A stretch of 64,000 nt of DNA, taken from assembly GCF_024808255.1 (NCBI RefSeq), contig NZ_JANTYS010000004.1, forward strand, positions 1 through 64,000, written 5' to 3'. The stretch comes from Mucilaginibacter dorajii (GTDB lineage Bacteria > Bacteroidota > Bacteroidia > Sphingobacteriales > Sphingobacteriaceae). The translations under genes were made by a program, and so were the position numbers. The notes beneath the pieces were generated by a model. That model was not told the origin of the DNA. It ran no database searches and saw only the letters and a list, made by a program, of their open reading frames with translations. Shown here in pieces: positions 1 to 62,992 of the stretch (positions are counted from its first letter, which is position 1; each line of letters starts with the position of its first letter).

Positions 1-95
1 CCTGCTACCGCCAGTGATGCTTCCTGCTGGTTGCCATAAACGCTCACCGGCAGCTTCTCGTACCGGGTCTCTTCCAATAAATTTAATCGGGCCAT
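1..95 (-). CDS. nagB: Probable glucosamine-6-phosphate deaminase, N-terminal fragment
   Basis: Only the first 31 codons are inside the window; the gene runs off the left edge. The peptide starts MARLNLLEETRYEKLPVSVY and matches, from memory, the N-terminus of the long NagB-type glucosamine-6-phosphate deaminases of Sphingobacteriaceae, which convert glucosamine-6-phosphate to fructose-6-phosphate plus ammonia. No catalytic residue is visible. The ATG at 95 has no Shine-Dalgarno sequence. A strong intrinsic terminator lies about 50 bases upstream on the same strand, so the leader may be attenuated or the terminator may close a separate small transcript. The identification rests on N-terminal similarity only. 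Confidence 0.5.
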   Translation of the reverse strand, partial: MARLNLLEETRYEKLPVSVYGNQQEASLAVA

Positions 96-142
96 AATTT
101 TTAAGAACCTGTGTTATATATATGTTGAAATAAAAAGATCGC

Positions 143-175
143 ATAAAAAAACCCCCGCCGAAACGAGGGTTTTAT
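143..175 (-). terminator. Intrinsic terminator or attenuator upstream of nagB
   Basis: On the minus strand AAAACCCTCG, a short loop and a CGGGGGTTTT arm form a GC-rich hairpin followed by seven T. It lies in the same direction as, and just upstream of, the probable nagB start, so it can act as an attenuator of nagB or as the end of a short leader transcript. A possible -7 element TATGTTTG is at 267-260 on the minus strand. The hairpin is preceded by AATTGGTTTGATAA, nearly the same box that precedes the terminator at 326-359. Confidence 0.7.
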
Positions 176-259
176 CAAACCAATTAACAAAACTGTTTTA
201 ACCTCACCGACATAAGGCTAAAATGAATTCTATTTAATAACAAGTTGTGCATTACACTA

Positions 260-267
260 CAAACATA
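260..267 (-). promoter_or_regulatory. Candidate -7 element for a short nagB leader transcript
   Basis: TATGTTTG fits the Bacteroidota -7 consensus TAnnTTTG on the minus strand. No well-spaced -33 TTTG is visible. A start here would give a transcript of roughly 100 bases ending at the terminator at 143-175, or reading through into nagB. A 22-codon ORF (MHNLLLNRIHFSLMSV...) fits between promoter and hairpin and stops at the AATTGGTT box. Confidence 0.35.
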
Positions 268-325
268 ATAAAACTAATTTTCAATTTAAAGAACTTTTTA
301 AATTATTTTAATAAGTGTTTTTGAG

Positions 326-359
326 CAAAAAAAAAGAGCTCCTGATGGGCAGGAACTCT
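326..359 (-). terminator. Intrinsic terminator of a short minus-strand unit
   Basis: On the minus strand AGAGTTCCTG, a five-base loop and CAGGAGCTCT form a hairpin with one mismatch, followed by nine T. It closes a short unit whose candidate promoter is at 493-500. The sequence just before it, AATTGGTTAGATCA, repeats the box before the terminator at 143-175. Confidence 0.75.
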
Positions 360-370
360 GATCTAACCAA

Positions 371-475
371 TTATAAAACATAAATATGAGAAGAGAAGTA
401 GATGCAGGGGACAGGATCGAACCATCCGCTCACCCGCCAACCGGTACCTGCTTTGTAGCTGTTAAATGCACCCAT
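371..475 (-). CDS. Candidate 34-residue small protein or leader ORF
   Basis: An ATG at 475 opens 34 codons (MGAFNSYKAGTGWRVSGW...) and stops at TAA at 371, 12 bases before a terminator. A TATATTTG -7 element lies 18 bases upstream of the ATG, so promoter, ORF and terminator form a compact unit. It resembles no family that I recognise. The unit may instead be a small RNA in which the ORF is incidental; codon-level conservation would decide. The piece GGTTCGATCC inside it resembles a tRNA T-loop, but no tRNA can be folded around it. Confidence 0.3.
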   Translation of the reverse strand: MGAFNSYKAGTGWRVSGWFDPVPCIYFSSHIYVL

Positions 476-492
476 TTATAAACTACCTGCTG

Positions 493-500
493 CAAATATA
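493..500 (-). promoter_or_regulatory. -7 promoter element of the short minus-strand unit
   Basis: TATATTTG on the minus strand matches TAnnTTTG exactly. It is 18 bases upstream of the small ORF at 371-475 and about 135 bases upstream of its terminator. No convincing -33 TTTG is seen. Confidence 0.5.
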
Positions 501-734
501 TAATTAATTCTATAATATCCATGTATTTAGTAGTATAAATATTATAGCCTTTCTGCATTTTTTTCATCATTTGTGACCCTGCGAATCGCTTTTACCGGCT
601 TCGTCGATACAAAAATCCACTCTATCGATACTCCTGGCATTAACTGCATTTAAATTTAAAACTTGCCTTAGTTGATAATTAATTAAAGGTTTAACATCAA
701 CCTGCTTTTTCGTTTACCCATTAAAATCAATTTT

Positions 735-1286
735 ATGATCATACTGCTTTGCGGATTATCCGGTGCCGGAAAAACAACACTTGCTAAAAAAGTTAAAGAC
801 AAGCTTGAGCGCATGGGCCATTTAACAGAAGTAATTGATGCCGACGAATATCGCCAGGAGCTTTTTCCTGATCTTAAATATTCAAAGGAGGATCGTTTTG
901 AAAATGTGCGTCGCCTGGGTTTCATCGCTGATAAATTTAGCAACCAGGGCATTATTACCATCATCAGCGCTATAATGCCTTATGAGGCAATGCGTCAGGA
1001 ACTGGTTAATAATTATGATGAGGTTAAAGTGGTTCATGTAGATTGCCCCCTAAGTGTTTTAAAAGCAAGGGATACCAAAGGACTTTACTACCGGGCGCAA
1101 TTGCCTGCCGGCGATCCGCAACGGATTAATAACCTAACGGGAGTAAGTGATCCTTTCGAGGCACCGCAACAACCACACCTATATATTAACACCTATGCCT
1201 ATGATGTTGCCGAATGTACCGGCAGGTTACTGGCATTTATTGAATATCAACGCTTTTTATCAAAACAGCGACCTGTTGCCTGTTAA
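735..1286 (+). CDS. cysC: Adenylyl-sulfate (APS) kinase
   Basis: This 183-residue cytoplasmic protein should phosphorylate adenosine 5'-phosphosulfate to PAPS, the universal sulfate donor. The Walker A motif GLSGAGKT is at residues 7-14, and the nucleotide-binding core continues through IDADEYR. DTKGLYYRAQ corresponds to the DPKGLY signature of APS kinases. The length is that of a stand-alone kinase with no fused sulfurylase domain. The next gene, 37 bases downstream on the same strand, is a sulfotransferase that would use PAPS, so the pair looks dedicated to sulfating a molecule rather than to cysteine synthesis. ATP sulfurylase is not in the window. No Shine-Dalgarno sequence is present, as is usual here. 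Confidence 0.85.
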   Translation: MIILLCGLSGAGKTTLAKKVKDKLERMGHLTEVIDADEYRQELFPDLKYSKEDRFENVRRLGFIADKFSNQGIITIISAIMPYEAMRQELVNNYDEVKVVHVDCPLSVLKARDTKGLYYRAQLPAGDPQRINNLTGVSDPFEAPQQPHLYINTYAYDVAECTGRLLAFIEYQRFLSKQRPVAC

Positions 1287-61026: not shown

Positions 61027-61099
61027 GCCTCCTTAGCTCAGCTGGTAGAGCGACTGACTTGTAATCAGTAGGTCATTGGTTCGATCCCGATAGGAGGCT
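61027..61099 (+). tRNA. tRNA-Thr (anticodon TGT)
   Basis: A full cloverleaf folds: acceptor GCCTCCT/AGGAGGC, D arm, anticodon arm ACTGA-CTTGTAA-TCAGT and T arm with TTCGATC. CCA is not encoded. It is the first of four tRNAs before tuf. Confidence 0.95.
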
Positions 61100-61165
61100 C
61101 AGTTTTTTTCGGAGATATAATGTTTAGCTTCAACTTTGGACATTGTAAATCCGGAACAAACTAAT

Positions 61166-61246
61166 GGGGAGATACCAGAGCGGTCAAATGGGGCGGACTG
61201 TAAATCCGCTGCTTCGGCTACGAAGGTTCGAATCCTTCTCTCCCCA
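61166..61246 (+). tRNA. tRNA-Tyr (anticodon GTA)
   Basis: Type II tRNA with a long variable arm (CTGCTTCGGCTAC). Acceptor GGGGAGA/TCTCCCC and anticodon stem CGGA-CTGTAAA-TCCG are intact; the T loop is TTCGAAT. CCA is not encoded. Confidence 0.95.
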
Positions 61247-61263
61247 CTGGAAGTTCCAGAGAT

Positions 61264-61311
61264 AACTAAATTCTAAATTCTAAAAATTGTTTTAGAGTTT
61301 AGAGTTTAGTT
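61264..61311. repeat. Self-complementary spacer between tRNA-Tyr and tRNA-Gly
   Basis: AACTAAATTCTAAATTCTAA and TTTTAGAGTTTAGAGTTTAG form a hairpin in the tRNA precursor. It is built of repeated TTCTAAA-like units and may be a processing site. Confidence 0.6.
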
Positions 61312-61328
61312 TTTGGAATTTAAAACAA

Positions 61329-61401
61329 GCGGAAGTAGCTCAGTTGGTAGAGCGATAGCCTTCCAAGCTATAGGTCGCGAGTTCGAACCTCGTCTTCCGC
61401 T
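61329..61401 (+). tRNA. tRNA-Gly (anticodon TCC)
   Basis: Acceptor GCGGAAG/CTTCCGC, anticodon arm ATAGC-CTTCCAA-GCTAT and T arm GCGAG-TTCGAAC-CTCGT are complete. Confidence 0.95.
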
Positions 61402-61406
61402 CGGTT

Positions 61407-61490
61407 GGTTCATTAGGCGGTTAGTTCATTTGTTCATTAGTGGCGGCCGGAACAGACCAATGAACTAATAAACGAGTGAACCAATGAACA
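61407..61490. repeat. Self-complementary spacer between tRNA-Gly and tRNA-Thr
   Basis: GGTTCATTAGGCGGTTAGTT and GTTCATTAG at the left pair with CCAATGAACTAATAAACGAG and GTGAACCAATGAAC at the right, giving a long hairpin in the precursor. Confidence 0.65.
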
Positions 61491-61498
61491 AAAAATAA

Positions 61499-61570
<72 letters not shown>

Positions 61571-61638
61571 CAATAAGAGAGTAAAGAGTAAAAGAATACA
61601 TTTTTAAGTAAAAATTAACCTACAAATAATTATAAATC

Positions 61639-62826
61639 ATGGCAAAAGAAAAGTTTGACCGCAGTAAACCGCACTTAAACATCGGTACAATCGGTCACGT
61701 TGACCACGGCAAAACAACCCTTACTGCAGCTATCACTAAAGTATTAGCTGATGCAGGTTTATCAGAAGCTCGTTCATTTGATTCAATTGACTCAGCTCCT
61801 GAAGAAAAAGAACGTGGTATTACCATCAACACGGCTCACGTTGAGTATTCAACTGCAAACCGTCACTATGCTCACGTTGACTGTCCAGGTCACGCGGATT
61901 ATGTGAAAAACATGGTTACCGGTGCTGCTCAGATGGACGGTGCAATCATTGTGGTTGCTGCTACTGATGGTCCGATGCCACAAACCCGCGAGCACATCCT
62001 GTTGGCACGTCAGGTAGGTGTACCTGCGCTTGTTGTTTTCATGAACAAGGTTGACATGGTTGATGATCCGGAATTATTAGAATTAGTAGAAATGGAAATT
62101 CGTGAATTATTATCATTCTACGAATATCCAGGTGATGATATCCCAGTTATCCAGGGTTCTGCATTAGGTGGTCTTAACGGCGATCCTACCTGGGTTGGTA
62201 AAATTATGGAGCTTATGGATGCTGTTGATAGCTACATCCCTATCCCTCCACGTTTAACTGAATTGCCTTTCTTAATGCCTGTTGAAGACGTGTTCTCAAT
62301 CACTGGTCGTGGTACTGTTGCTACCGGTCGTATTGAGCGTGGTGTAATCAACTCAGGTGAGCAAGTTGACATCCTTGGTATGGGTGCTGAAAACTTGAAA
62401 TCAACTGTAACTGGTGTTGAGATGTTCCGTAAGATACTTGATCGCGGTGAGGCTGGTGACAACGTAGGTTTATTGTTACGTGGTATTGAAAAAACTGATA
62501 TCCGTCGTGGTATGGTTATTTGCAAACCAGGTTCAGTAACTCCACACACTGATTTCAAAGCAGAAGTTTACGTATTATCAAAAGCAGAAGGTGGCCGTCA
62601 CACTCCATTCTTCAACAAATACCGTCCGCAATTCTATTTCCGTACAACTGACGTAACTGGTGAGATTTCATTAGCCGAAGGTGTAGAAATGGTTATGCCA
62701 GGTGATAACGTTACAATCACTGTAAAGCTGATCAACGCTATTGCAATGGAAAAAGGCTTACGTTTCGCTATCCGTGAAGGTGGCAGAACAGTAGGTGCTG
62801 GTCAGGTAACTGAAATATTGAAATAA
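61639..62826 (+). CDS. tuf: Elongation factor Tu
   Basis: The 395-residue GTPase carries aminoacyl-tRNA to the ribosome. G1 GHVDHGKT (19-26), switch [14 protein letters not shown]3 DCPGHADY and G4 NKVD are intact, followed by domains 2 and 3 ending [14 protein letters not shown]. Codon use is strongly biased (GGT, CGT, AAC), as expected for very high expression. There is no SD upstream. The order Thr-Tyr-Gly-Thr-tuf, with the same anticodons, is that of the E. coli thrU-tyrU-glyT-thrT-tufB operon. Confidence 0.98.
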
Positions 62827-62849
62827 CAATTTCAAAAAGGTTAATTGGA

Positions 62850-62885
62850 AACATAAGTTTACCGTTAAAAGTAAACTTATGTTTT
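62850..62885 (+). terminator. Hairpin terminator after tuf
   Basis: AACATAAGTTTAC, an eight-base loop and GTAAACTTATGTTTT form a terminator-like stem with a short T run. Some read-through into tRNA-Trp and secE is possible. Confidence 0.75.
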
Positions 62886-62903
62886 CTTATTATAATTATA
62901 TAC

Positions 62904-62974
62904 ACGGGAATAGTTCAACGGTAGAATAGAGGTCTCCAAAACCTTTGATCAGGGTTCGAATCCTTGTTCCCGTG
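62904..62974 (+). tRNA. tRNA-Trp (anticodon CCA)
   Basis: Acceptor ACGGGAA/TTCCCGT with discriminator G. Anticodon loop CTCCAAA with stem AGGT/ACCT, and T loop TTCGAAT. CCA is not encoded. The secE start is 18 bases downstream. Confidence 0.93.
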
Positions 62975-62992
62975 CATAAAGCAAATAAGCAA

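Follow-up and report, generated by a model that had tools for sequence, protein, structure and literature searches.

A putative small RNA with a tRNA-like 5' part and a separate candidate nagB leader in Mucilaginibacter dorajii

Two short units ending in terminators precede nagB on the minus strand of a contig from the Mucilaginibacter dorajii genome (7.16 Mb). They lie in a window of 64,000 nucleotides, positions 1-64000 of that contig. Judged from sequence comparison, and with a probability of roughly 60%, unit 1 is a small RNA gene carrying a tRNA mimic, and unit 2 is a separate nagB leader. The role most likely to apply to unit 1 is that of a small RNA with many siblings, its tRNA-like domain setting or protecting its 5' end.

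In the proposed mechanism, unit 1 would encode a small non-coding RNA that has a large family of siblings. The effector of this RNA would be the 3' module, comprising at most 30 nt that end in AGGUUUAUAAUUGGUUAG or a close variant, followed by the terminator hairpin. The 5' part, according to alignment, is a tRNA mimic cut down to the acceptor, D-like, and T arms, which RNase P, RNase Z, or similar enzymes would probably recognize, thereby setting or protecting the 5' end of the module. At other loci, a short promoter-driven leader, tRNA-Cys, or a class-II tRNA-like RNA stands 5' of the same module. Unit 2 would probably be under a GlcNAc-responsive regulator, with its terminator setting the transcription that reaches nagB. 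The same protein or RNA probably contacts the box next to the terminator, on its 5' side, in both units.

Layout of the two units

493..500, minus strand: promoter box of unit 1, TATATTTG (sequence)
455..486, minus strand: 5' leader hairpin of unit 1 (minimum free energy fold; kept with changed arms in L008 and L010)
404..451, minus strand: mini tRNA-like domain without an anticodon arm (alignment A2; window copy by eye)
within 404..451, minus strand: acceptor of the mini tRNA-like domain, GCAGG/CCTGC (by eye)
432-445, minus strand: D-like hairpin, part of the mini tRNA-like domain
410-426, minus strand: T arm with loop TTCGATC, part of the mini tRNA-like domain
326..396, minus strand: conserved 3' module of the R1 family (R1 85.1 bits; this copy is a seed sequence)
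363..377, minus strand: module box UUUAUAAUUGGUUAG (alignments A1 and A6)
327..359, minus strand: unit 1 terminator hairpin with GCCCAUC loop and T run (pattern scanner, alignments)
293..316, minus strand: palindrome ACTTATTAAAATAATTTAAAAAGT 5' of unit 2, putative GlcNAc-regulon operator (four genome sites)
260..267, minus strand: promoter box of unit 2, TATGTTTG (sequence; TATGTTTG or TAAGTTTG in orthologues)
196..223, minus strand: unit 2 hairpin with TGTCGG loop (A4 pair counts; not retained in more distant copies)
174..185, minus strand: unit 2 box AATTGGTTTGAT (A4; distant copies keep TTTATAGTTAATTGGTTG or a sequence near it)
143..173, minus strand: unit 2 terminator and T run, 5' of nagB (fold, A4)
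3..95, minus strand: nagB, first 31 codons, continuing beyond the contig start (open reading frame)

As an earlier note on this DNA had claimed, both minus-strand units contain, where it had placed them, a TAnnTTTG box, which from its consensus we take to be the Bacteroidota -7 promoter box, the element AATTGGTT[A/T]GAT, and a hairpin followed by a T run. The shared box reads AATTGGTTAGAT at 361-372 in unit 1 and AATTGGTTTGAT at 174-185 in unit 2, and the hairpins with their T runs span approximately 327-359 and 143-173, respectively. The unit 1 terminator was found by a pattern scanner, and that of unit 2 by sequence reading and folding. Enrichment of the box before terminators in relatives, on which the earlier note had staked its proposal, is strong: of the 201 distinct sequences that match the unit 1 box plus GCCCAYC, 194 have a closing stem, and all 12 unit 2 copies, every one 5' of nagB, carry ATTGGTTTGA unchanged. 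Divergent from unit 1 is an adenylylsulfate kinase-like gene (window 735-1286), relatives of which also lie upstream of four module copies of the T-arm class described below.

The units had also been read as possibly encoding leader peptides. Short open reading frames exist in both units, but their conservation is poor. That of unit 1 (34 aa, 371-475) is open to the box in the orthologue L008 and stops early in L009 and L010. That of unit 2, as read from the sequence, has 22 codons, with an ATG at 252-250 and a TAA at the box; the in-frame ATG, 36 or 39 nt 5' of the hairpin motif, is kept in 12 copies, while residues and stop vary and the frame runs beyond the box in L008, L010, L012, and L159. 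With orthologous frames read by eye, the leader peptide is unsupported in unit 1, the case for it in unit 2 is weak, and it is disfavoured because the frames are kept not at all or in part only. The box does read N-W-[L/F]-D in both units, as reported, but this is simply the translation of the box.

The comparison with Rfam that the earlier note had proposed was run with Rfam 15, Flavo-1 included. At gathering score, the window gave five tRNAs alone, and both units were without a match. Matches below gathering score fell on unit 2 (istR, E 0.0007; Leu_leader, E 0.004) and over a module in L080 (rnk_pseudo, E 0.04). A search of open-licence literature found no description of these RNAs.

A recurrent 3' module behind different 5' parts

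Unit 1 ends in a 70-nt module made up of the box, a hairpin with a GCCCAUC loop, and a U run. In BLAST searches with unit 1, the 3' part recurs in its own genome and in 36 of the 36 same-genus genomes searched; 23 genomes of other families of the class gave one marginal match, to the promoter stretch only. The model R1, built from 23 BLAST-found copies with the window's unit 1 among the seeds, finds five copies in the M. dorajii genome and up to 22 matches in a single genome. Of the 121 Sphingobacteriaceae genomes sampled, 95 have an R1 match, as do 20 of the 25 genera, some of these matches being marginal (E near 0.01). A search of 295 genomes of the class gave matches in 12: eight Sphingobacteriaceae and four weak cases outside the family, which resemble diverged or partial modules. 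A diverged module-like element with CATAGTTTAGGTTTTAGGTAATTA before a hairpin is seen in two genomes from another family (L088 and L091). A pattern scan of named genomes gave at least 120 stretches; the matches listed include a few chance ones and come from Mucilaginibacter, Sphingobacterium, Pedobacter, Parapedobacter, Arcticibacter, Daejeonella, and other genera. Ten viral contigs match the module pattern, and R1 gives three of them 33.5-64 bits and a fourth 21; no viral contig matches a tRNA-like pattern. Two of the viral-collection contigs, L265 and L267, with R1 matches of 57 and 64 bits, could be host DNA.

The hairpin is well supported. The 194 stem-bearing copies have at least three pairs around the loop, and 190 of them have a T run, neither stem nor T run being specified by the pattern; of the seven stem-less matches, five look like chance and two (L003 and L060) have a stem mismatch. 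Covariation was assessed over nine stem pairs in 58 distinct aligned copies from 55 loci against 500 shuffles, in an alignment that was fitted to the model and is thus biased in favour of pairing. Pairing reached 99.4% of cells as opposed to 72.5% in shuffles, and 130 cells showed double changes as opposed to 34; four of the five measures were reached by none of the 500 shuffles. The remaining measure, which counts the pairs that have at least one double change, showed no excess (8 vs 7.7 shuffled, 384/500) and is at its ceiling. Because the scan pattern fixes the loop, its invariance is best judged on the 23 BLAST-found copies, all of which have GCCCATC. Most Mucilaginibacter-type copies also keep CTTCTCAT 5' of the box.

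What precedes the module is far more varied. The 5' partners of the 201 modules comprise 86 class-II tRNA-like RNAs, 33 other sequences with a T arm, and 82 cases of something else. On inspection, the 33 T-arm copies divide into 3 tRNA-Cys, 3 class-II variants, 2 truncated or masked copies, and 25 mini tRNA-likes. The apparent tRNA-Cys genes lie 5' of the module in L002, L102, and L117, with ARAGORN support for L002 only. Among the 76 stem-bearing copies of the something-else class, RGTGTTANNTTTACAC occurs within 120 nt in 34, and TANNTTTG within 150 nt in 40 (11 with the reversed-pattern control). In the T-arm class, 24 of 32 copies have TANNTTTG no more than 150 nt 5' of the module (control 5 of 32), and in the class-II set 0 of 86 do (control 4), the stretch concerned being mostly the tRNA-like RNA itself. 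The mean fold of 58 promoter-driven leaders is -3.7 kcal/mol compared with -1.9 kcal/mol in shuffles, although only 18 of the 58 beat their shuffles individually at p <=0.05. The complete unit 1 shows no folding advantage over its shuffles (z -1.1), and the ensemble prediction has part of its box paired.

tRNA-like RNAs with and without an anticodon arm

The 5' part of unit 1 resembles a tRNA from which the anticodon arm is absent. Alignment A2 holds 21 of the 25 mini tRNA-like copies (L011, L166, L187, and L202 are excluded, the last having GGTTCAA), and GGTTCGA is invariant in it. The D-like hairpin, RGCTG-nnGG-CAGC, varies across the aligned copies with compensatory changes; the window copy pairs ACCG with CGG(G)T. 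RNAalifold on A2 does not show the acceptor helix. In a per-sequence test, 19 of 19 distinct other copies have at least five contiguous base pairs, compared with 30% when the strands are shuffled; the test expression missed the window copy and three others, and strands from other copies pair nearly as well (cross mean 5.3 bp, own mean 5.9 bp).

These domains are not recognized as ordinary tRNAs. Of 22 loci scanned with ARAGORN, 21 are without a tRNA call and L002 has two tRNA-Cys; the five tRNAs that it calls in the window all lie at 61027-62975, away from unit 1. The Rfam tRNA model has no match in window positions 1-740 up to E 10, nor on the tRNA-like parts of five loci up to E 0.1, the tRNA of L082 being elsewhere. 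RNase P and RNase Z contact tRNA parts of the kind that the mini tRNA-like retains, which suggests a processing or protective role.

The lack of ARAGORN calls in 21 of 22 loci, together with the diverse length and linker of the mini tRNA-like copies, would also be expected if the tRNA-like parts were non-functional, being either tRNA genes in decay or integration sites. This is very improbable, however, as compensatory changes preserve the D-like and T arms of the mini form and maintain the acceptor and V arm of the class-II form, and neighbours are conserved. Nor does the one class-II copy with its module that was compared with plasmid and phage records (L069) have a match there; a mobile element was rejected on that basis and on the lack of a tRNA-like pattern match in viral contigs.

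The class-II tRNA-like RNA was aligned using 33 of 88 sequences. Pairing reached 98.6% of cells, compared with 96.0% in shuffles, and seven pairs showed double changes; no shuffle out of 500 did as well on four measures, and 9 did on the fifth. The D and anticodon-like stems are uninformative because they are invariant. Best matches of the corresponding model, R2, at E <1e-19 extend to 14 of 25 Sphingobacteriaceae genera, including two (g28 and g31) without an R1 match; weaker R2 matches are probably ordinary tRNA-Leu. At E <=1e-12, R2 matches 43 of 295 genomes of the class, 36 of which lie outside the family, in 18 further families. In 24 R2 matches inspected from 20 outside-family genomes, full pairing of the anticodon-like stem is possible when G-U pairs are counted, most of the loops read YNGUCNC (those of L297 and L300 do not), and many of the V arms are longer. 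The longest V arms (L288-L290, L294, L298, L299, and L271) hold a submotif close to GGGTTGACCAC. Copies of this RNA (L281-L300, L269-L280, and C22:49841-50097 in the M. dorajii genome) have a long V arm and mostly GUC in the anticodon-like loop, and are sometimes in tandem. ARAGORN and Rfam give no call for it.

A divergent Lrp/AsnC-type gene, an assignment checked by Pfam for one member, adjoins the class-II RNA at 21 of 30 loci, and at 13 of 20 outside the family, when approximately 1 kb of flank is considered on each side. In the earlier set, such a gene lies beside 56 of 86 class-II copies, tandem copies sharing neighbours.

The nagB leader, possible partners, and known systems

As the window begins at the contig start, nagB is truncated, and its identity comes from the L123 orthologue, which falls under NCBIfam NF002557 (glucosamine-6-phosphate deaminase-like) and passes TIGR00502 nagB. 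All 12 distinct copies of the unit 2 hairpin motif lie 5' of nagB. The unit 2 model, R3, has matches in 19 of 201 Sphingobacteriaceae genomes. Those of at least 40 bits (15 of 15) are directly 5' of nagB, all in Mucilaginibacter (the window's own genome, G020, and 13 more), whereas four further matches of 33-34 bits lie away from nagB, one of them (L319) being an R1-type module. By its sequence context, unit 2 can be regarded as a nagB leader, and the placement of these 15 matches suggests attenuation. The window contains no TAnnTTTG between the unit 2 terminator and nagB, so nagB transcription probably passes the terminator.

The two stems of unit 2 (alignment A4) show modest covariation, with 97.3% of cells paired compared with 94.5% in shuffles, four double-change pairs (5/500 shuffles), and no excess of pair types (90/500). 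The distant copies L307-L315 lack the TGTCGG hairpin and keep TTTATAGTTAATTGGTTG or a close variant together with the terminator. No antiterminator was found for unit 2: pairing of GGTTT in its box with AAACC in the terminator is seen in the window and was rejected on being lost in orthologues. The palindrome at 293-316 has four genome sites within three mismatches (control 0). One of these (G000:C2:246850-246873) begins 67 nt 5' of the start of a GH20 beta-N-acetylhexosaminidase, and the other two are near genes with no obvious GlcNAc link.

Units 1 and 2 are not copies of each other and belong to different families: R1 gives unit 1, a seed sequence, 85.1 bits and unit 2 7.7 bits, the background level in 3 kb. 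R1 nonetheless has sub-threshold matches at unit 2 in 7 of the 14 orthologues given (E 0.07 to 0.9), with two elsewhere, which indicates that the shared box is probably not due to chance. A remote link between the boxes of the two units is likely on these comparisons.

That both units might be cis-acting attenuators of nagB alone is suggested by their position 5' of this gene in the window and in L008, L009, L010, and L012. This reading is improbable, since other mini tRNA-likes and modules adjoin many unrelated genes, and in L032-L034 unit 2 stands 5' of nagB with no module in the sequence examined. The same three loci, with no unit 1 nearby, and the difference in families speak against the pairing of the units that had been proposed earlier. 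The accompanying suggestion of small RNAs or attenuators can be divided, small RNA suiting unit 1 and nagB attenuator suiting unit 2.

The partner of the module was sought in two directions. Hfq, which an Hfq-dependent small RNA would require to be encoded, was found over cut-off in 0 of 101 Sphingobacteriaceae genomes, with one sub-cut-off match (20.5 bits, G117), in a search for which 5 of 14 controls were positive. Genome-wide, near-complements of the box number 56, five of which are modules, compared with 47 for the reversed control, which is no clear excess; duplexes at 400 of 648 gene starts near modules are no better than with shuffled boxes. These two negative antisense tests weaken simple seed pairing by the box and make a protein or a single conserved RNA the likelier partner.

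The same observations bear on a different reading, in which the module has no effector role. It would instead be a sequence-specific 3'-end element, with an RNA-binding protein or termination factor binding box and hairpin and so stabilizing or terminating any carrier, be it a tRNA, a small RNA, or, in diverged form, the nagB leader. A near-identical module behind very different 5' parts, loop conservation beyond the needs of a terminator, and the absence of both antisense enrichment and Hfq over cut-off in the 101 family genomes would fit this reading. It is a serious but less likely explanation, given that conservation spans more sequence than a protein site would usually need and that most Mucilaginibacter-type copies share CTTCTCAT 5' of the box as well. 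The preferred reading remains a small RNA whose effector would be the module.

Comparable systems are known. The Escherichia coli 3'ETS-leuZ, from the 3' external transcribed spacer of tRNA-Leu, is one of several tRNA-trailer small RNAs. As in those RNAs, a putative small RNA here lies directly 3' of a tRNA or tRNA-like sequence and ends in a terminator. In contrast to 3'ETS-leuZ, the tRNA part is often non-canonical, the trailer is common to many loci, and no Hfq was found over cut-off. YrlA and other bacterial Y RNAs mimic tRNA and are likewise non-coding RNAs with a tRNA-like fold, whereas the RNAs described here have a conserved 3' terminator module with varied 5' partners. Unit 2, similar to attenuators and riboswitch leaders, would combine leader structure with a terminator immediately before a metabolic gene but, unlike them, has no Rfam family at gathering score. 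BatR of Bacteroides thetaiotaomicron is a 154-nt RNA with a 3' terminator and probable 5' processing, and its neighbours in the genus include genes with Lrp/AsnC domains (PMC10861873). At the level of description, this is a suggestive parallel.

Three putative RNA families emerge to which these Rfam scans assigned nothing at gathering score. One is the 3' module, multicopy in Sphingobacteriaceae; another is the class-II tRNA-like RNA, which frequently has an Lrp/AsnC gene next to it and in one sample reaches 18 further families of the class; the third is the nagB leader of Mucilaginibacter. A tRNA fold without an anticodon arm would make it possible to test which tRNA enzymes need only the elbow and acceptor, and the shared module could serve as bait for a small-RNA partner in bacteria where Hfq was not found. 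A broader and quite tentative proposal is that in Sphingobacteriaceae a single sequence-specific 3' module marks many small RNAs for an RNA-binding partner, part of the pool arising from tRNA mimics, both the class-II form, paired with an Lrp/AsnC regulator in many Bacteroidia, and the form lacking an anticodon arm. If true, amino-acid status would feed a small-RNA network via tRNA look-alikes that do not decode.
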